From: Planctomycetota bacterium
GTDB taxonomy: Bacteria > Planctomycetota > Phycisphaerae > Phycisphaerales > Phycisphaeraceae
DNA length: 64,000 nt
Reading direction: 5' to 3'
Assembly (NCBI GenBank): GCA_021413865.1
Contig: JAIOPN010000014.1
Location: 372,001 to 436,000 of the forward strand
Shown: piece after piece, positions 38,281-56,146 of the stretch
Numbering within the stretch: position 1 is the stretch's first letter
Layout of the letters: each line of letters begins with the position of its first letter
The notes under the pieces: generated by a model
What the model was told of the DNA's origin: nothing
The model's database searches: none
What the model saw: the letters and a program-made list of their open reading frames with translations, nothing else
Translations under genes and position numbers: made by a program

Positions 38281-39480
38281 TCATTTTTCGTCGAGCAGTT
38301 CCACCGACGCGAACTTCTTGCCCTCGAGCATCTCGAGGCTCGCGCCGCCGCCGGTGGAGACGTGGCTGACCTTATCCGCTAAACCGAACTCCTCGATCGC
38401 CGCCGCGCTGTCGCCGCCGCCGATGATCGTCACCGCGCCGCGCGACGTGGCATCGGCCACCGCCTGCGCGACCGCACGGGTGCCGGCGTCGAACGGCGGC
38501 ATCTCGAACACACCCATCGGCCCGTTCCATACCACCGTCCCCGCGCCCCTCAATTGATCCGCGAATAGCTTCATCGACTTGGGCCCGATGTCGAACCCGC
38601 CCCAGCCGTCGTCGATGTTGCCGCCCTCGAAGATGCGCTTGTTGCAGTCGGGTTTGAAGTCGTCGCCGCAGTGTGTATCGACGGGCAGCACGATCTTGCC
38701 CGCGCTCTTGGCGAGCATCTCCTTGGCCTGCGCGACAAAGTCTTTTTCGACCTTGCACGCGCCGGTCTTCTTGCCCTGCGCGAGGAAGAACGTATAGGCC
38801 ATCGCCCCGCCGATGAGGATTTTGTCCACGACGCCCAGGAGATTCGTGATCACGGGGATCTTGTCGGAGACCTTCGCCCCGCCGAGGATCGCGACGAACG
38901 GCCGCTTGGGTTTGGCGATCGCATCCGACAGGTAGCGGATTTCTTTCTCGACGAGGAACCCGACGACGCAGGGCTTGCCCACCTCCTTCAGCACCTTGGG
39001 CACGGCGTACATCGAGCCCTCCGTGCGGTGGCAGGTGCCGAACGCGTCGTTGCAGTAGGCGTCGCCGAACGCCGCGAGCTTCGTGGCGTAATCGGGCTCA
39101 CCTTTTTTCTCGCCCTTGTTGAAGCGCACGTTTTCGAGGAGCAGCACCTCACCATCCTTCAGCGCCGCGACCTTCGCCGACGCATCGGGGCCGACGGTGT
39201 CGCCAGCGAACGCGACCGGCTTGCCGAGCAACTCGCCGAGCCGGGCCGCGCAGGGCTGGAGGGTGAACTCCGGTTCGGGCCCCTTGCCCTCGGGCCGGCC
39301 CAGGTGGCTCATGAGGATCAGCCGCCCACCGCGGTCGGTCACGCTCCTGATCGACTCGACCGCCATGCGGATGCGGCGGTCGTCGGTGATCTTGCCCGCT
39401 TCGAGGGGCACGTTGAAATCGACGCGCATGAGCACGCGCTTGGAGCGCACGTCCACGTCGGCGATGGTTTTCTTGGCCAT
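38281..39480 (-). CDS. pgk: Phosphoglycerate kinase
   Basis: The 399-residue protein has all PGK hallmarks: the N-terminal RVDFNVPL near residue 19, [14 protein letters not shown] near 55, the hinge and nucleotide region [12 protein letters not shown] near 200, and the C-terminal [34 protein letters not shown]. It makes ATP from 1,3-bisphosphoglycerate in glycolysis. AGGAG precedes the ATG by seven bases. It is divergent to ygfZ with 60 bases between starts, and no gap or tpi gene is adjacent. Confidence 0.97.
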
Positions 39481-39540
39481 GTTGAAGGTCTCCTGCCCGG
39501 GTCGCGGGACTTCGGGGAGGGGACATCATAAGATCGCACC

Positions 39541-40728
39541 ATGAGCGTCACCACCACGCTGCGGCAGATGCAGGAGCAGGCCGGGGCCTCGTTCGTTCCC
39601 TACGGCCCGGCGGGCGGCGGCGCGGTCGAGATGGTCGAGACCTTCGGCTTTTACGAGGGGGAGTACGCGGCGATCCGGCGCGGCGTGGGCCTGCTACACA
39701 TGCCCCAGCGCGGCGTGCTGCGTTTCACGGGCAAGGACCGCGCCGAGTTCCTCCACGCCATGCTCACGCAGGACATCAGGGGCATGACCGGCGGCGCGAC
39801 GCGGCGCGGCTTCCAGCTCAACTCCCACGGCCGCATCGTGGCCGACGTCATCATCCACCACGGCGACCTCGACACCTGGCTGGAGCTCGACGCGATCGAC
39901 ATCCCCGCGCTCAAGGCACTGCTCGAAGGCCGGCTGTTCAGCGAGGAGGTCGTGATCGAGGACTGGTCGGAGCGTTACACGGCCGTCTCGCTGCACGGGC
40001 CGGCGGTGCTCCCGCTGCTGCGACGCGTCATCGCGGAAGACCCGGCGAAGATGATCGACATGCCGGGTACGCACCACGTACTGACGCTGAACGGCCAATA
40101 CGTCACCGCCTACCGCTGGGACGAGTGCGGCGTCACCGGCGTGCGTCTGCTCATCCCGCGGGAACACGAAGCGGAGCTCGTGCAGGCGCTGGCCGCACCG
40201 CTGGGCGGGCTCAACCCGGAGCCCGCGCCGACATCACCCGAAGAGAAACCCGGCGAACAAAAAATCCGCGGCCGGGGGATCGGCTGGCTGGCGTTCAACA
40301 CGGCTCGCATCGAGGCGGGGTCGCCGCTCTTCCACATCGACTTCGGCCCCGACACGCTGCCGCACGAGACGGGCATCCTCGCCGCGACGGCGAGCTTCAC
40401 CAAGGGGTGCTACCTCGGGCAGGAGATCGTCGCCCGCATGCAGAACCTGGGCCACCCGAAGAAGGTGCTCGTGGGGCTGAAGTTCGAGGACGACCGGCTG
40501 CCGATCGCCGGGGCGCAGGTGTTCGAGCCGGCGGAGGCGGCGGGTGTTTCGGGAACGGTGATCGGCGGGGTGACGAGCTCCACGCTGGCGCCGATGCTCG
40601 GGGGCAAGGCGGTCGCGCTGGCGATGATGAAGTGGGGCAAGCACCGCGCGGGCACGAGGGCGGCCGTACCCGCCGAGGGCGGCATGGCCCCGGCGGTGGT
40701 GCAGGGTTTGTCATTTCTCAACGGGTGA
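39541..40728 (+). CDS. ygfZ: YgfZ/GcvT-family folate-binding protein
   Basis: The 395-residue protein has the aminomethyltransferase-like fold. The N-terminal FTGKDRAEFLHAMLTQDI (~57) and the YgfZ signature ATASFTKGCYLGQEIVARMQNLG, with its K-G-C-Y-x-G-Q-E core (~287), are both clear. The Cys in this motif is required in YgfZ. YgfZ helps keep certain iron-sulfur enzymes active in a folate-dependent way. That fits the Isc genes elsewhere in the window, although they are 7 kb away. It is divergent from pgk. A true glycine-cleavage T protein is less likely because of the signature. Confidence 0.88.
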   Translation: MSVTTTLRQMQEQAGASFVPYGPAGGGAVEMVETFGFYEGEYAAIRRGVGLLHMPQRGVLRFTGKDRAEFLHAMLTQDIRGMTGGATRRGFQLNSHGRIVADVIIHHGDLDTWLELDAIDIPALKALLEGRLFSEEVVIEDWSERYTAVSLHGPAVLPLLRRVIAEDPAKMIDMPGTHHVLTLNGQYVTAYRWDECGVTGVRLLIPREHEAELVQALAAPLGGLNPEPAPTSPEEKPGEQKIRGRGIGWLAFNTARIEAGSPLFHIDFGPDTLPHETGILAATASFTKGCYLGQEIVARMQNLGHPKKVLVGLKFEDDRLPIAGAQVFEPAEAAGVSGTVIGGVTSSTLAPMLGGKAVALAMMKWGKHRAGTRAAVPAEGGMAPAVVQGLSFLNG

Positions 40729-49110: not shown

Positions 49111-50118
49111 ATGCCCAAGGCCAAGCTCGTCATCACCGACTTCATCACCGGCGACCTCTCGCCCGAGCTCAACATCCTGGGCGACCTGGCCACCGTCGAG
49201 GCGCTCGACGCCTACAACGAAGACCAGCTCGTCGGCCGGATCGAGGACGCCGACGCGATCATGCTCTACCACAACCTCGCCCTCTCGCGCCGCACCATCG
49301 AACGCCTCACGCGCTGCAGGCTCATCGTCCGCTGCGGCGTGGGCGTGGACAACATCGACCGCGACTTCGCGAAATCACGCGGCATCCCCGTCGCCAACGT
49401 GCCAGACTACGGCACGGAAGAGGTCGCCGACTCCGCCATCGGCCTGACGCTCGCCATGACGCGCGGCATCGCCTACCTCAACTCCAAGCTGCGCGACGGC
49501 ACGGCCGAGCAGCGCGGCCCGTGGATGTACACGCAGGTCGAGCCGCTGCACCGCCTGCGCGGCCGGGTCTTCGCCTGCGTCGGCATGGGCCGCATCGGCA
49601 CCGCCACCGCGCTGCGCGCCAAGGCGCTGGGCATGGACGTGCTCTTCTACGACCCCTACCTCCCCGACGGCTGGGATAAAGCGATCGGCGTCCGCCGCGC
49701 CGAGTCGATCGAAGAGCTGCTCCGCAACGCCCTCGTGCTCAGCCTGCACTGCCCGCTCACGCCCGAGACGCGCCACATGATCAACGCCGCCCGTCTTGCC
49801 CTGCTCCCGCGCGGGGCCTATTTAGTGAACACCGCCCGCGGCGCGGTGGTGGACACGGCCGCCCTCCCCGCCGCGATCGCCTCCGGCCAGCTCGCCGGCG
49901 CGGGGATCGACGTCCTGGAAGGCGAACCCCCGCGCGCCGACGACGCCCTCGTCAACGCCTGGCGAAACCCCGGCCACGCGTGCCACCACCGCGTGATCAT
50001 TAATCCCCACTCGGCGTTTTATTCGGTGGAGGGGCTGATGGACATGCGCGTGAAGGGTTCGCACGCGTGCCGGCGGGCGATTTTGGGGGAGACGCTGAGG
50101 AATGTGGTGAATATGTAG
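49111..50118 (+). CDS. D-isomer-specific 2-hydroxyacid dehydrogenase (CtBP/SerA-like)
   Basis: The 335-residue protein has the two-domain fold. The NAD site is CVGMGRIGTATALRAKALGM with YDPY (~155-180). The catalytic triad fits Arg in LSLHCPLTPETRHMI or the preceding GARLV-type position (~220), Glu in LEGEPPRAD and His in INPHSAFYSVEGLMDMRVKGS (~310). The start of the fold (LVITDFITGDLSPELNIL) and the NIDRDFAKSRGIPVANVPDYGTEEVAD segment are typical of CtBP-like dehydrogenases. The substrate is unknown; SerA itself usually has an ACT domain, absent here. The upstream open frame is repeat DNA and is not used. Confidence 0.86.
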   Translation: MPKAKLVITDFITGDLSPELNILGDLATVEALDAYNEDQLVGRIEDADAIMLYHNLALSRRTIERLTRCRLIVRCGVGVDNIDRDFAKSRGIPVANVPDYGTEEVADSAIGLTLAMTRGIAYLNSKLRDGTAEQRGPWMYTQVEPLHRLRGRVFACVGMGRIGTATALRAKALGMDVLFYDPYLPDGWDKAIGVRRAESIEELLRNALVLSLHCPLTPETRHMINAARLALLPRGAYLVNTARGAVVDTAALPAAIASGQLAGAGIDVLEGEPPRADDALVNAWRNPGHACHHRVIINPHSAFYSVEGLMDMRVKGSHACRRAILGETLRNVVNM

Positions 50119-50175
50119 TCGCGCTATGTGAGGGAGGGAGATGCGATCCCGCGAACCCCTGTCAGCTGGGCCGGT

Positions 50176-50409
50176 CTAATCATCGAGCCCGCGCCCTAAG
50201 TAGTTCCCGATCTGTCTCGAAAAAATGAGCAGGATGCCGCCGATCAGCAGCCACCAGATGGACCCCGCGAGACGGTCTCGTGGGACCATATCGGCGTGGC
50301 CCGCGATGGAGAGATAGGCGAAATAGAGCAGGCCGAAGGCGGCAATCAGCGCCATGACGAGGCCCACAATGCGGCAGATAAAGGCACCGATTTTTTGGAA
50401 CTTGTTCAT
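50176..50409 (-). CDS. Small membrane protein with two helices
   Basis: The 77-residue protein starts at the ATG at 50409. Two hydrophobic segments can be seen: IGAFICRIVGLVMALIAAFGLLYFAYLSI (~7-35) and IWWLLIGGILLIFS (~55-68). The polar loop HADMVPRDRLAGS and tail RQIGNYLGRGLDD separate and follow them. No family was recognised; function unknown. It stands alone downstream of the dehydrogenase gene, convergent to it. Confidence 0.6.
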   Translation of the reverse strand: MNKFQKIGAFICRIVGLVMALIAAFGLLYFAYLSIAGHADMVPRDRLAGSIWWLLIGGILLIFSRQIGNYLGRGLDD

Positions 50410-50507
50410 GGGATCATCGTCCCGGCAGTAAATGCATGAGACAAGACGTGTACATGCACGGGACAGCATGCTCGGGGCGCAGGGCGGCGTCAAACCTCAA
50501 GCAGGCA

Positions 50508-50537
50508 AAAGCCCAGGCATGGCCATGCCTGGGCTTT
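50508..50537. terminator. Hairpin identical in stem to that at 29434
   Basis: AAAGCCCAGGCAT, loop GGCC, ATGCCTGGGCTTT. It is about 105 bases after the heparinase stop, and leftward it is followed only by TGCCTGC, so termination is less certain than at 29434. Confidence 0.6.
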
Positions 50538-50642
50538 GGGGAGTTCGATATTCAACCACCGCTCAGCTAATCGCCGGCCCCAGCGGGTTCCAGATGTAGC
50601 TTGGCTTGTTGAAGTCGCCCGCGACTGGGCGACGGTGTCATC

Positions 50643-52604
50643 TCACGGCTTGATGTGGCTCGGAAGCGCGATCGTCGTGTCGCGCCCGCCGATCGTCAGC
50701 GTGATGGCCGGTGATCCGCCGCCGATGTTCAGCCTCGCGCTCACGTCCGGCAGCGTTGCCCGCCACGGCAGCAGCAGGAAATCGCGGCGCATCGGCGTGG
50801 CCCCCGCGCCGGTGAAGTGGACCTCCCACGCCGGCTCCTCCCGGTAGAGCTCGGGCGAGACCCAGCCGCGCGTCGGGTTACGCTCCCCGCAGTGCCGCTC
50901 GACCGACACCCCGCCGCCCTGGGCCGCCATCAACAGCACCGCCAGGTCCGGCCCGCCGGGGATGCGCGTCCGCACCCCGCCGGGGATTTCCTCGACCACG
51001 CCGATGTCGTGCGCGAAGTGAAACAACTCGGTCACCTCGTGTGTGCGCGTGCCCTCGATCCAATCCGTGATCCAGAAGAACGGCGGCGCCCCCTTGTGAA
51101 ACACGACGCGCCGGCGCACCTTCACGTCACCGATGTCGCGCTCATAGGGCCCGGCGAAGTCCGCTTCCGTCACGTCCCACACCGGCCCGGTCGTCCACGG
51201 GTTTTTCAGCGGCACGTGCGAGTACCACTTGTCGCGGTCTTCACGCCAGCGGCACTGCCCCGCGCCGTCGATCAGCACTGTGTTGTGCGCCTGCGCGAGC
51301 ACGACCCACTCTCGCATCCAGTGTTCGCTGTAGGAGTGGTCACCAGCATCCACGAGGAACGGCCGTCCGAACGCGCAGAGCTCGAAGCCGAGCTTGTCCT
51401 CGTGCTGGTGCCCCTGGCCGAACCGCCCGCCGTCGAAGCACATGTAAACCGCGTCGCGCTCCCAGCCGCTGCGCATCGTGTAATACCCGATGCTCGTCGC
51501 GGCGCAGGATGTGTAGGCGGGCGGCCGGCCCTTCTTGCCCCCGCTCACCGCCCAGTCGAGCTCGGACATGTCGTAGAAGCGCGGCAACTGCCAGAGGTAT
51601 TGCGGGACGTACCGGTCGTGGCTGTCGCCGAAGAAGGGGACGCAAAAGTCCGGCCGCATGAGGCCGACGACATGACGGATCATTCGCGCCCAGGCGGCGC
51701 GGACGCGGCCGGGGTATTGCAGGCCGTGCTCCGCCGCCAGTCGCAGGAACTCGCTGGCCCCATAGAGACAGCAGTTCTGATAGCCCGGGCAGCCCTCGAT
51801 CATGGAGCCGTCGGGCATGACCTGCTTGGAGGTCTCGTCGTCGAGCCTGGCGATGACGCTGTGCTGGAGCGCGGGGGTTCGGCGGAACTCGGGGAAGAGG
51901 ATGGTGAACTTGAGCCAGGCGCTGATCCAGGCGAACAAGTGGTTGCCGCCGATGGAGGTCTGCGCGGGCTCGGAGAGGTGCGAGGTGACGTTGCACTGCT
52001 CGGCGTGGTCGAGGCCGAAGAGGATGAGCTTGCAGAGGGTGGCGTCGTCGATGCCGCCGTGGAAGAGCGAGCTCATGACCAGTTGGGGCCAACACCCGTC
52101 GGTCTCGTGCCAGGTGATGACGAGGTGGGGATCGAGATACTGGGCGATGCGCTGGTCGAGCGCGGCCTTGACGGCCGGGTCGCCCGTGGTGACCACCGCG
52201 TTCCACAGCGCCACGGAATACTGCCCCTGTGGGTTGAAGCCCGCGGCCGGTGCGACCGGCGCACCGACAAACGACGCGACATTCGGCGCCGCGCGGCGGC
52301 GCAGGTAATCGAGGAACGCCGCAGCCCCGCCGGGCTCCTCATCGGTCAGCATCCGTGCGATCGGCGCCAGCGCCTGGAACCGCTCGGTGTCGAGTTCCTC
52401 CCCGAGCCTGCGGAGCGTGTAGGTCCGGCCGGTCGGCCAGCGGTACTGCCACGCGCCACGCGCCGAGGAGATCAGGTGGTCGCGCGCATCCTCGATGCGG
52501 CCCTGCTCGGCGAGCTCACCGACCCGTTCGATCCCGCTGATGCGGACCGTCAGGAGTTGGCTGTAACGTTCCCAGATGGAAGGTGCGGGCATGGTGTGGA
52601 TCAT
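50643..52604 (-). CDS. Heparinase II/III-family protein
   Basis: The 653-residue protein has an alpha/alpha toroid domain (residues ~60-330; GGNHLFAWISAWLKFTILFPEF, DGSMIEGCPGYQNCCLYGASEFLRLA). A beta-sandwich domain follows, starting GYYTMRSGWERDAVYMCFDGG (~375), then GQGHQHEDKLGFELCAFGRPFLVDAG and AHNTVLIDGAGQ. The H-x-H-x-D and HNT elements are those of heparinase II/III lyases, which cut uronic-acid-containing polysaccharides. There is no signal peptide, unusual for such lyases. An ATG at 52592 is another possible start. It supports polysaccharide use together with the other carbohydrate genes. Confidence 0.85.
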   Translation of the reverse strand: MIHTMPAPSIWERYSQLLTVRISGIERVGELAEQGRIEDARDHLISSARGAWQYRWPTGRTYTLRRLGEELDTERFQALAPIARMLTDEEPGGAAAFLDYLRRRAAPNVASFVGAPVAPAAGFNPQGQYSVALWNAVVTTGDPAVKAALDQRIAQYLDPHLVITWHETDGCWPQLVMSSLFHGGIDDATLCKLILFGLDHAEQCNVTSHLSEPAQTSIGGNHLFAWISAWLKFTILFPEFRRTPALQHSVIARLDDETSKQVMPDGSMIEGCPGYQNCCLYGASEFLRLAAEHGLQYPGRVRAAWARMIRHVVGLMRPDFCVPFFGDSHDRYVPQYLWQLPRFYDMSELDWAVSGGKKGRPPAYTSCAATSIGYYTMRSGWERDAVYMCFDGGRFGQGHQHEDKLGFELCAFGRPFLVDAGDHSYSEHWMREWVVLAQAHNTVLIDGAGQCRWREDRDKWYSHVPLKNPWTTGPVWDVTEADFAGPYERDIGDVKVRRRVVFHKGAPPFFWITDWIEGTRTHEVTELFHFAHDIGVVEEIPGGVRTRIPGGPDLAVLLMAAQGGGVSVERHCGERNPTRGWVSPELYREEPAWEVHFTGAGATPMRRDFLLLPWRATLPDVSARLNIGGGSPAITLTIGGRDTTIALPSHIKP

Positions 52605-52629
52605 CGTGTTCAGGACAATGAAAAGAAAG

Positions 52630-52682
52630 ACCGCCTGCCGGCCTCGAACCGGCGACCTGCGCTTTACAAAAGCGCCTCGGCC
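52630..52682 (-). tRNA. Truncated tRNA-Thr(TGT): D-arm remnant to acceptor 3' strand only
   Basis: On the minus strand a perfect anticodon arm GCGCT-TTTGTAA-AGCGC (anticodon TGT, threonine), variable loop AGGTC, T-arm GCCGG-TTCGAGG-CCGGC and acceptor 3' strand AGGCGGT are present. The 5' acceptor strand (ACCGCCT or similar) and a normal D-arm are absent upstream. No CCA is encoded. It is thus a 3' fragment, most simply a remnant of integration at a tRNA gene. Confidence 0.75.
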
Positions 52683-52850
52683 GAGAGAAATCTACGGGAA
52701 TTCAAGTGTTTATGAAAATCGGACAGCAGCACGCGCAGCACAAAGGCCAGATGTCATGAAAACAAAGACCGAAAGCCAACGGCTAACTCCGTGATATCAT
52801 GTGGGACTTTGCCCGACCCCCGGGCTCAACGGACCACCACGGAGCCGCCC

Positions 52851-54155
52851 ATGGACTGTTTCCAGTACCGCAACGGCCAGTTGTTCTGCGAAGACGTGAA
52901 CCTGGACGACCTGGCGTCGCGCGTCGGCACGCCGGCGTACGTTTACTCCCGCCGTACATTGCAGGAGCACTACGACCGCCTGGCCAAGGCGTTCGCGGCG
53001 CTCAAGCCGATCATCTGCTACTCGATCAAGAGCTGCGGCAACGTGCACATCTGCAAGCTGCTCGGCGAGCGCGGCGCGGGGATGGACGTGGTCAGCGGCG
53101 GCGAATTGTTCCGCGCCAAGCTGGCGGGCGTGCCGATGGGCAAGGTGGTGTACGCCGGTGTGGGCAAGACCGACGCCGAGATCCGCGCCGCCATCGAGGC
53201 GAAGATCGGCTGGTTCAACATCGAGTCCGAGGCGGAGTTCGAGAACATCGCCGCCATCGCCAAGCAGATGGGTGCGACCGCCAACGCCGCCCTGCGCGTC
53301 AACCCCGACGTCTACGACGCCAAGACGCACGCCAAGACATCCACCGGCAAGAAGGAAACCAAGTTCGGCGTGGACATCGAACGCGCCCGGCGCTTCTTCG
53401 AGCACTACGGCCGGGACAAGCACCTGAAGCTCAACGCCATCCACCTGCACATCGGCTCGCCCATCTACTCCGCCGATCCTTACGTGCAGGCGATCACCAA
53501 GGCGCTCGAGCTCATCGACGAGCTGCGCAACCAGGGGCACACGATCTCGGCGCTGGACATCGGCGGCGGGTTCGCGGCCGACTACGAATCCGGCGCCTCG
53601 CCCGACGCGGCCAACTATGCCGAGGCGATCGTGCCGCTGCTGGAGAAATTCCACAAAGAGGGCGGGACGATCATCCTCGAGCCGGGCCGGACCATCGCCG
53701 CCAATTCCGGCATCCTGCTCAGCCGCGTGCAGTACATCAAGATGGGCGGGAAGAAGAAGTTCGTGATCGTCGATACCGGCATGCACCACCTGGTGCGGCC
53801 GACGCTGTACGACTCGTTCCACTTCATCTGGCCGACGAAGGTCTCGCCGATGCACACGCCCACGGGCCGGTCCAAGGAGATGAACCTGCCGGGCCTGGAG
53901 CTGTGCGACGTGGTCGGGCCGATCTGCGAGAGCGGGGACTTCCTGGCCAAGGAGCGGCCGCTGCCGCCGGTGGCGCGCGGCGACCTGGTGGCGATCTTCA
54001 CGGCCGGGGCGTACGGCATGGTGATGGCGAGCAACTACAACGCCATGCCGCGCCCGCCCGAGGTGCTGATCGACGGCGGCAAGGCGATCGTGATCCGCCG
54101 CCGCGAGACGTACGACGACCTGGTGCAGCAGGAGCGCGAGGCCGTGCCGGTGTGA
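52851..54155 (+). CDS. lysA: Diaminopimelate decarboxylase
   Basis: The 434-residue protein is a fold-type III PLP enzyme. The PLP Lys is in PIICYSIKSCGNVHICKLL (~58), HLHIGSPIYSADPY (~205) and LDIGGGFAADYESG (~240) bind cofactor phosphate, and LEPGRTIAANSGILLSRV (~285) and the C-terminal CESGDFLAKERPLPPVARGDLV (~365) contain the active-site Cys and substrate contacts. It makes lysine from meso-diaminopimelate. The start is the ATG at 52851 with GGAG upstream. The spelling YSIKSC rather than YAVKAN at the PLP Lys is slightly unusual. It stands next to the tRNA fragment. Confidence 0.94.
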   Translation: MDCFQYRNGQLFCEDVNLDDLASRVGTPAYVYSRRTLQEHYDRLAKAFAALKPIICYSIKSCGNVHICKLLGERGAGMDVVSGGELFRAKLAGVPMGKVVYAGVGKTDAEIRAAIEAKIGWFNIESEAEFENIAAIAKQMGATANAALRVNPDVYDAKTHAKTSTGKKETKFGVDIERARRFFEHYGRDKHLKLNAIHLHIGSPIYSADPYVQAITKALELIDELRNQGHTISALDIGGGFAADYESGASPDAANYAEAIVPLLEKFHKEGGTIILEPGRTIAANSGILLSRVQYIKMGGKKKFVIVDTGMHHLVRPTLYDSFHFIWPTKVSPMHTPTGRSKEMNLPGLELCDVVGPICESGDFLAKERPLPPVARGDLVAIFTAGAYGMVMASNYNAMPRPPEVLIDGGKAIVIRRRETYDDLVQQEREAVPV

Positions 54156-54171
54156 GAGGCTTCCGCGCCGT

Positions 54172-54744
54172 TCACGCGGCGCGCCGGCCCATCGGCAGCG
54201 ACGACACTGCGAGCACAACGACGACCAGCAGACCGATGAAGAGCAGCGGGAGTGATTTAAGTTGGGAAGGCTGCGCCAGCAGCAGCGCCAGCCACATCGC
54301 GGTCACCGCGTAGCGCCCCGAGACGAGCCGGCCGCGCATCGCCGAGCCGGCATCCAACATCGACTCGATCACCATCAGCACGAGCGCCGCCAGGATGAGC
54401 GCTGTGGAGCGTCCGCGCATCCAGAGCGTGTGGTCGAGCTGCGCCTGTTGCAGGCGGTTTTGCAGCTCGATGAGCCGGCCCTGGTTGGCCTTGACCTTTT
54501 CAGTAACCGCCACCTCCGTCGCACCGCTGGCCTCGATCCCCTTCAGCTCATCCCTCAGCCCGGTATTGAGACGGTCCAGTTCTTCCTGATACGACCCCAC
54601 GCCGACGAACCAGTTGTCGTAGGTCTCCGGCGCGACGCGCCCGAGCACCGCGGGGCCCAGCAATACACCCAGCACGACGCCCGCGATGATCAGGTAAAGG
54701 TCCCAGTGGTTCGGCGCGACGGTACGGCTTGATGTGGCATCCAT
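54172..54744 (-). CDS. Membrane protein with internal coiled coil
   Basis: The 190-residue protein has an N-terminal helix pair (LYLIIAGVVLGVLLGPAVLG, ~16-36), then an outside or inside segment (~45-110) with a likely coiled coil (EELDRLNTGLRDELKGIE, EKVKANQGRLIELQNRLQQAQ). At least three further membrane helices follow (STALILAALVLMVIESML, YAVTAMWLALLLA, LPLLFIGLLVVVVLAVSSL). No family was recognised; function unknown. It is convergent with lysA (16 bases between stops) and shares its upstream gap with the L-fuconate dehydratase gene. Confidence 0.7.
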   Translation of the reverse strand: MDATSSRTVAPNHWDLYLIIAGVVLGVLLGPAVLGRVAPETYDNWFVGVGSYQEELDRLNTGLRDELKGIEASGATEVAVTEKVKANQGRLIELQNRLQQAQLDHTLWMRGRSTALILAALVLMVIESMLDAGSAMRGRLVSGRYAVTAMWLALLLAQPSQLKSLPLLFIGLLVVVVLAVSSLPMGRRAA

Positions 54745-54841
54745 GGCAAGAGTGTAATCGCACCGCGCCGGTTCGCGCCGCGGAATTTACGGCGTTCGTT
54801 CGGCGCCGCTACACTGTCGCGCCCGATTTACGGAACCCGTC

Positions 54842-56146
54842 ATGCCCACCACCATCACCGACGTGCTCGCCCGCGACATCCGCTTCCCCACCTCCCGCCA
54901 CCTCGACGGGTCGGACGCGATGAACCCCGACCCGGACTACTCGGCCGCCTACGTGATCGTCAAAACCGACAAACCGGGCGGCCCCGAGGGGCACGGCCTG
55001 ACGTTCACCATCGGGCGCGGCAACGAGCTCTGCGTCGAAGCGGTCAAGTCCATCAGGCCGCTGCTTGTGGGCCGGACGCTCGAATCCTTCACGGCCAACA
55101 TGGGGGCGTTCTACCGCCACGTCACCGGCGACAGCCAGCTCCGCTGGATCGGCCCGGAAAAGGGCGTGATCCACCTGGCGACGGCGGCGGTGGTCAACGC
55201 GGTGTGGGACCTCTACGCGAAGGCCCAGGGCAAGCCGCTCTGGAAACTGCTGGCCGACATGACGCCCGAGCAACTGGCCTCGTGCGTCGATTGGCGCTAT
55301 CTCACCGACGCGCTCACACCCGAAGAGGCCGTCGCGATGCTCCGCAAGATGGAGCCGGGTAAAGCGGCGCGCGAGGCACAGATGCGCGAGAAGGGGTATC
55401 CCGCGTACACCACCTCCGCCGGGTGGCTGGGTTATCCCGACGACAAGATCCGCGCGCTCTGCCGCGAGGCGGTGGCGGCGGGGTACAACCACATCAAGAT
55501 CAAGGTCGGCCGGGACATGAAGGACGACCTGCGCCGCTGCGCGATCATCCGTGAGGAGATCGGGCCGGACCGCAAGCTGATGGTGGACGCGAACCAGGTG
55601 TGGGACGTGCCGCAGGCGATCGCGTGGATGAAGGAGCTCGCGGCGTTCCAGCCGTGGTGGATCGAGGAGCCGACGAGCCCGGACGACGTGCTGGGCCACG
55701 CGGCGATCGCCAAGGTCGTGCGGCCACTGGGGATCGGCGTGGCGACGGGGGAGATGTGCCAGAACCGCGTGATGTTCAAGCAGCTCCTGCAGGCCAAGGC
55801 GATCGACTTCTGCCAGATCGACTCCTGCCGGCTGGGCGGGGTGACGGAGAACATCGCGGTGATATTGATGGCGGCGAAGTTCGGCGTGCCGGTCTGCCCG
55901 CACGCGGGTGGCGTGGGCCTGTGCGAGTACGTGCAGCACCTGTCGCTCTTCGACTACATCGCCGTGAGCGGGTCGCACGAGAAGTGCGTGACGGAATACG
56001 TCGATCACCTGCACGAGCACTTCATGGAGCCCTGCGTGGTGAAGCGCGGGCATTACATGCCGCCGACACGGCCGGGGTACAGCATCCAGATGAAGGCGGC
56101 GTCGCTGGAGGAGTACGAGTACCCGAAGGGGAAGGCGTGGAAGTAA
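54842..56146 (+). CDS. L-fuconate dehydratase-like enolase-superfamily enzyme
   Basis: The 434-residue protein matches the FucD/ENOSF1 group. The N-terminal DVLARDIRFPTSRHLDGSDAMNPDPDYSAAYV is closely like that group, and YTTSAGWLGYPDDKIRALC precedes the catalytic barrel. The catalytic residues are visible: K-x-K in NHIKIKVG (~222), Asp in LMVDANQVWD (~250), Glu in WIEEPTSPDD (~277), Glu in ATGEMCQNRVMFKQ (~303) and His in VCPHAGGVGLCEY (~353). Such enzymes dehydrate L-fuconate to 2-keto-3-deoxy-L-fuconate. This supports use of fucose-containing polysaccharides. It stops three bases before a convergent gene. Confidence 0.9.
   Translation: MPTTITDVLARDIRFPTSRHLDGSDAMNPDPDYSAAYVIVKTDKPGGPEGHGLTFTIGRGNELCVEAVKSIRPLLVGRTLESFTANMGAFYRHVTGDSQLRWIGPEKGVIHLATAAVVNAVWDLYAKAQGKPLWKLLADMTPEQLASCVDWRYLTDALTPEEAVAMLRKMEPGKAAREAQMREKGYPAYTTSAGWLGYPDDKIRALCREAVAAGYNHIKIKVGRDMKDDLRRCAIIREEIGPDRKLMVDANQVWDVPQAIAWMKELAAFQPWWIEEPTSPDDVLGHAAIAKVVRPLGIGVATGEMCQNRVMFKQLLQAKAIDFCQIDSCRLGGVTENIAVILMAAKFGVPVCPHAGGVGLCEYVQHLSLFDYIAVSGSHEKCVTEYVDHLHEHFMEPCVVKRGHYMPPTRPGYSIQMKAASLEEYEYPKGKAWK

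Follow-up and report, generated by a model that had tools for sequence, protein, structure and literature searches.

An orphan 3' half of tRNA-Thr(TGT) as a probable attachment-site scar in a Planctomycetota genome

How does half of a tRNA gene come to stand alone between two protein-coding genes? This question is raised by a short segment of the 64-kb stretch of DNA analyzed here (the window; C4:372001-436000 of a 4.37-Mb assembly in 67 contigs). Read from 52675 to 52629 on the minus strand (C4:424629-424675), it corresponds to the 3' part of a tRNA-Thr(TGT) gene, comprising the anticodon arm, the variable region, the T-arm, the acceptor 3' strand and the discriminator. It is intergenic, located outside any conserved protein domain in a 246-bp gap that separates two divergent genes (Table 1). 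The initial annotation of this stretch had described the segment as an orphan tRNA fragment and possible attachment-site scar, either the far end of an island or a remnant.

Table 1. Features of the locus and further tRNA 3' halves of the genome. Positions are those of the window unless a contig (C) is named.
Feature	Position	Strand	Evidence
Orphan 3' half of tRNA-Thr(TGT), anticodon arm to discriminator	52629..52675	-	43/46 identical to G000:C4:493250-493322, plus discriminator
Anticodon arm GCGCT-TTTGTAA-AGCGC, anticodon TGT; presumed crossover region	52659..52675	-	sequence; identity to the intact gene begins exactly here
AGGTC between anticodon arm and T-arm of the half		-	sequence
T-arm GCCGG-TTCGAGG-CCGGC; stem intact, one loop substitution	52637..52653	-	sequence, comparison with the intact gene
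Acceptor 3' strand AGGCGGT; two substitutions relative to the intact gene	52630..52636	-	sequence, alignment
Discriminator C of the half	52629	-	sequence
Sequence replacing the tRNA 5' half, then lysA upstream region	52676..52850	.	55% GC, without tRNA similarity
Heparinase II/III-like gene, starting about 25 bp beyond the 3' end of the fragment	50643..52604	-	Pfam PF07940, PF16889
lysA-like decarboxylase gene, displaced from its usual ruvB neighbor	52851..54155	+	Pfam PF02784, PF00278
Ser-GCT half	C7		66/66; integrase between gene and fragment
Met half	C13		44/44; integrase between gene and fragment
Ser-TGA half	C38:9364-9425		62/62; on a separate contig from the gene
Gly-TCC half	C55		98% over 50; just a 69-aa recombinase piece close to the gene

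Identity and limits of the tRNA half

The genome harbors 45 tRNA genes, and the sole tRNA-Thr(TGT) gene among them is located at C4:493250-493322 on the minus strand. The half differs from this intact gene at three of 46 positions (E = 3.8e-15): the T-loop has one substitution, and the acceptor strand, which reads AGGCGGT instead of AGGTGGC, has the other two. In 200 trials with shuffled queries the minimum was 15 mismatches and the mean 19.1, and the second-best place for the query on the same strand of the 64-kb window had 20. The similarity is thus far beyond chance and the fragment is real. The anticodon arm, T-arm and acceptor 3' strand had been called perfect, which holds for the two stems but not, relative to the intact gene, for the T-loop and the acceptor strand. 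Likewise, the segment expected in an intact tRNA gene was found over a matching length of 46 bases with 43 of them identical, not as a fully identical copy.

Identity to the intact gene starts abruptly with the first anticodon-stem base, and the 26 bases 5' of this point match at seven positions (7/26, counted by eye on the alignment), which is about chance. This indicates a junction and not the slow decay of a whole gene. Beyond the 3' end of the tRNA the flanks show slight similarity (6/8 bases). On the 5' side of the fragment the GC content is 55%, compared to a mean of 62% in 62 intergenic stretches. The missing 5' part and the more AT-rich sequence in its place had thus been described correctly. 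A complete, if unusual, tRNA was not found either: ARAGORN called no tRNA gene in the whole window, and Rfam detected no tRNA in 50000-55000 nor in 52580-52860.

tRNA halves elsewhere in the genome and in relatives

Four further displaced tRNA 3' halves were found in the same genome, derived from Ser-GCT, Ser-TGA, Met and Gly-TCC genes, and each of them starts in the anticodon arm. The Ser-GCT and Met halves originate from 22 stretches, picked mostly around tRNA-integrase pairs, and the window; the Ser-TGA and Gly-TCC halves were retrieved when the whole genome was searched with the 3' halves of all 45 tRNA genes, a search that missed the Thr and Met fragments already known. The Thr half carries three substitutions, whereas the Ser-GCT, Ser-TGA and Met halves carry none. 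No extra 5' halves were detected, as the 41 places retrieved with 45 5'-half queries all proved by eye to be known tRNA genes. The genome-wide searches scored 40 of 78 (3') and 40 of 68 (5') candidates, so that the counts are lower bounds, and the contrast between many 3' halves and no 5' halves is suggestive only.

A counterpart that still contains its element occurs in the same family. Genome G016 harbors an intact tRNA-Thr(TGT) gene (C97:485), a 46-nt half identical to it at 40059 and, at 38750-39919, a tyrosine integrase gene, the stretch from gene to half measuring 39.5 kb (C97:485-40104). G001 contains a similar half, in this case derived from a Thr-CGT tRNA. With like junctions in four other halves and, in G016, an island with an integrase at this very tRNA, the interpretation as an attachment-site scar, already put forward in the initial annotation, is well supported. 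We estimate a probability of about three in four that the half is a decayed scar of the attR type that has lost its element and lies in rearranged surroundings.

An origin as an ordinary duplicate, in which tRNA-Thr(TGT) was copied in whole or in part without an integrase and truncated by ordinary deletion, is unlikely. It would agree with a diverged copy that has no element left and lies in rearranged local gene order, and with the presence of more than one tRNA-Thr-like gene in several relatives. However, the cut is located in the anticodon arm, like those of the four other halves and of G016, and the extra copies found are 3' and not 5' halves, though the genome-wide searches were not exhaustive.

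Signs of element traffic at other tRNA genes of this genome were also observed and are in line with a scar. A tyrosine recombinase gene lies directly beside 11 of the 45 tRNA genes (on C7, C8, C10, C13, C27, C32, C37, C54 and C60; L091-L105), and 10 of these 11 recombinase frames run antisense into the tRNA, whose sequence would encode the recombinase C-terminus. At tRNA-Ser(GCT) an 11.7-kb island is located (L222; C7:58000-76000), in which a Prim-Pol domain protein adjoins the integrase. The tRNA-Ser(TGA) island is seemingly split, with the intact tRNA and integrase on C54 (L105) and the identical 3' half on C38 (L225). The Gly-TCC gene and fragment on C55 (L223, L224) are spaced 22.5 kb apart, and the similarity of this pair runs on past the tRNA after a small indel. 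In G028, contigs C205 and C259 (L090, L219) end inside tRNA-Thr, one in the anticodon stem and the other just past the anticodon; the ends overlap by 11 tRNA positions, possibly because the population is mixed at an attachment site. As it is only a contig end, the G028 half was not counted as a scar.

Neighboring genes and the interval to the intact gene

The genes on both sides of the gap were compared with those of related genomes. For the heparinase gene no match at E<=1e-30 was obtained in the other 50 genomes of the family; within the class, matches at E<=1e-20 occurred in 20 other genomes of 397, the best being about 31% identical. The lysA-like gene, which we take to encode a diaminopimelate decarboxylase, has its most similar relatives in Phycisphaeraceae and other Planctomycetota. 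Its usual neighbor, presumably ruvB as judged from its sequence, was located nearby in at least 29 of 50 lysA loci of relatives, which came from two collections with partly overlapping genomes and included 1.5 or 5 kb on either side as far as the contig extended. Around lysA of the window, ruvB is absent from 124 kb, and in a comparison of gene order lysA was the one gene in common with the G007 and G017 regions. A lysA gene away from ruvB and a heparinase gene without close relatives indicate that the gap is a place of changed gene order. This in turn explains how a scar can occur without its element.

Outside its tRNA part, the gap had no match in 60 relatives (61 genomes including that of the window). 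No relative sharing the gap was found among these genomes, the 51 family genomes searched include no other of its genus, and none of the close relatives showed its state before or after the change. In phage and plasmid collections, 35 phage records and one plasmid matched, all confined to the tRNA part, and no viral contig showed two patterns for the half.

The heparinase gene would gain a different meaning if an element with a tRNA-Thr half in its attP had integrated at a secondary site beside lysA and left this gene behind as cargo. Its location directly at the 3' end of the fragment, the lack of matches at E<=1e-30 in the family and the distant matches in the class are in line with such an event, which we nevertheless regard as very unlikely: neither a second junction nor an element gene was seen, and the substitutions in the half are explained equally well by decay.

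The half lies 68.6 kb from the intact gene, on its 3' side and on the same contig and strand. By the Islander criteria this pair resembles the ends of an island, as gene and fragment share their orientation (both C4 minus), the 3' fragment is placed on the 3' side of the gene within the range of 2-200 kb, and it lies outside conserved protein domains. The interval itself lacks both an integrase gene and foreign gene content. It contains argG, ppk, parB, rpoN and recR, according to gene calls from a home-made script and not a standard gene-finding program. The five proteins tested were all assigned by NCBIfam to core functions (sigma-54, RecR, argininosuccinate synthase, polyphosphate kinase and ParB); for one more protein, judged by eye to be PriA-like, there was no matching NCBIfam model. 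The GC content is 61-74% throughout, and the fragment marks no step in it.

Recombinase domains were found in the genome (21 matches to PF00589 and two to PF00239), none of them on contig C4. When 12 integrases were compared by tblastn with 124 kb of C4, the best match reached E = 0.012. This match overlies the intact tRNA-Thr, and the C-terminus of the query integrase is likewise read from a tRNA. A 430-aa open frame across the intact tRNA-Thr (L014:16019-17308) matched no NCBIfam family. The surroundings of both tRNA-Thr copies thus yielded neither an integrase or resolvase nor an integrase remnant that could be read. The neighbors of tRNA-Thr are hardly conserved.

Two readings treat the interval itself as mobile. 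In one, the 68.6-kb core block was moved to its present place by tRNA-targeting integrase activity. Bracketed by attachment repeats, it would resemble a passive island, and its transfer would fit the displaced lysA; we consider this highly improbable. In the other, a real 68.6-kb island extends from the intact tRNA-Thr to the fragment, which strand, side and size would allow. Given the core genes, the flat GC content and a contig free of tyrosine and serine recombinases, this is scarcely credible, and a present island between the two copies was rejected. The integrase and GC shift proposed as signs of an island between the two sites are both missing, so that the reading as its far end is not supported and only the alternative of a remnant survives.

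Finally, the half could serve the heparinase gene as a functional leader RNA, which is conceivable from its location about 25 bp ahead of the start codon, two possible hairpins and one terminator-like pattern. This explanation is the least probable and was discarded, since the folding energy is no better than that of shuffled sequences (z -0.10), terminator-like sites number one versus 0.6 expected, promoter-like sites are lacking and the remainder of the gap, apart from the tRNA part, is unmatched in the 60 relatives.

Proposed history and comparison with known systems

For the attachment-site scar, the following course of events may be proposed. An element with a tyrosine integrase would have entered tRNA-Thr(TGT) by a crossover in the anticodon arm, where the 3' half that it carried would rebuild a full tRNA and displace the original 3' half. 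The element would subsequently have been lost, and a later rearrangement could have brought lysA and a long core segment to its place, or the scar could have moved together with its flank. The fragment, its junction, the like pattern in this genome and in a relative and the present lack of an element are observed, whereas the formation of this copy by an integrase and the sequence in which loss and rearrangement took place are inferred. The missing integrase and integrase remnant, the core-like DNA between the copies, the three substitutions, the slight similarity of the 3' flanks and the lack of a close relative showing an earlier or later state count against a scar. As an orphan scar the footprint is ordinary in kind, and such footprints are common in bacteria. 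It would represent a record of earlier traffic of elements at a tRNA that serves as a target in a relative, too. The locus also illustrates that a tRNA gene and a matching fragment are insufficient to call an island and that the intervening DNA must be checked. Without a check for integrases, software that pairs tRNA genes and fragments would flag this core segment as foreign.

The Islander study (PMC4383910) describes the tRNA-plus-fragment signature and its filters, reports 3' fragments in 3760 of 3919 islands, 2083 being anticodon-centered, and refers to Mx8 and SSV as earlier examples of integrases that extend across attP. The half of the window resembles these islands in being an anticodon-centered 3' fragment in the orientation of the gene, on its 3' side and within 2-200 kb. 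It differs by the absence of an integrase and of foreign DNA, and would fail the integrase filter. According to a review on archaeal recombinases (PMC8371274), loop and stem of the anticodon arm correspond to the organization of core sites. A study of fragments mistaken for tRNA genes (PMC9897764) states that tRNA gene-like remnants of integration should be pervasive among prokaryotes. These are partial tRNA genes from integrating elements, as proposed here, but the example given there flanks an island, whereas the half of the window is an orphan. A core block moved by an integrase would resemble the integrase-driven rearrangement reported in Thermococcales (PMC5495485). A further counterpart is the G016 island, which involves the same tRNA-Thr(TGT) and a half that likewise begins in the anticodon stem, shifted by one base to a later start. 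G016 retains 39.5 kb with an integrase and a half identical to its gene, whereas in the window the half alone remains.
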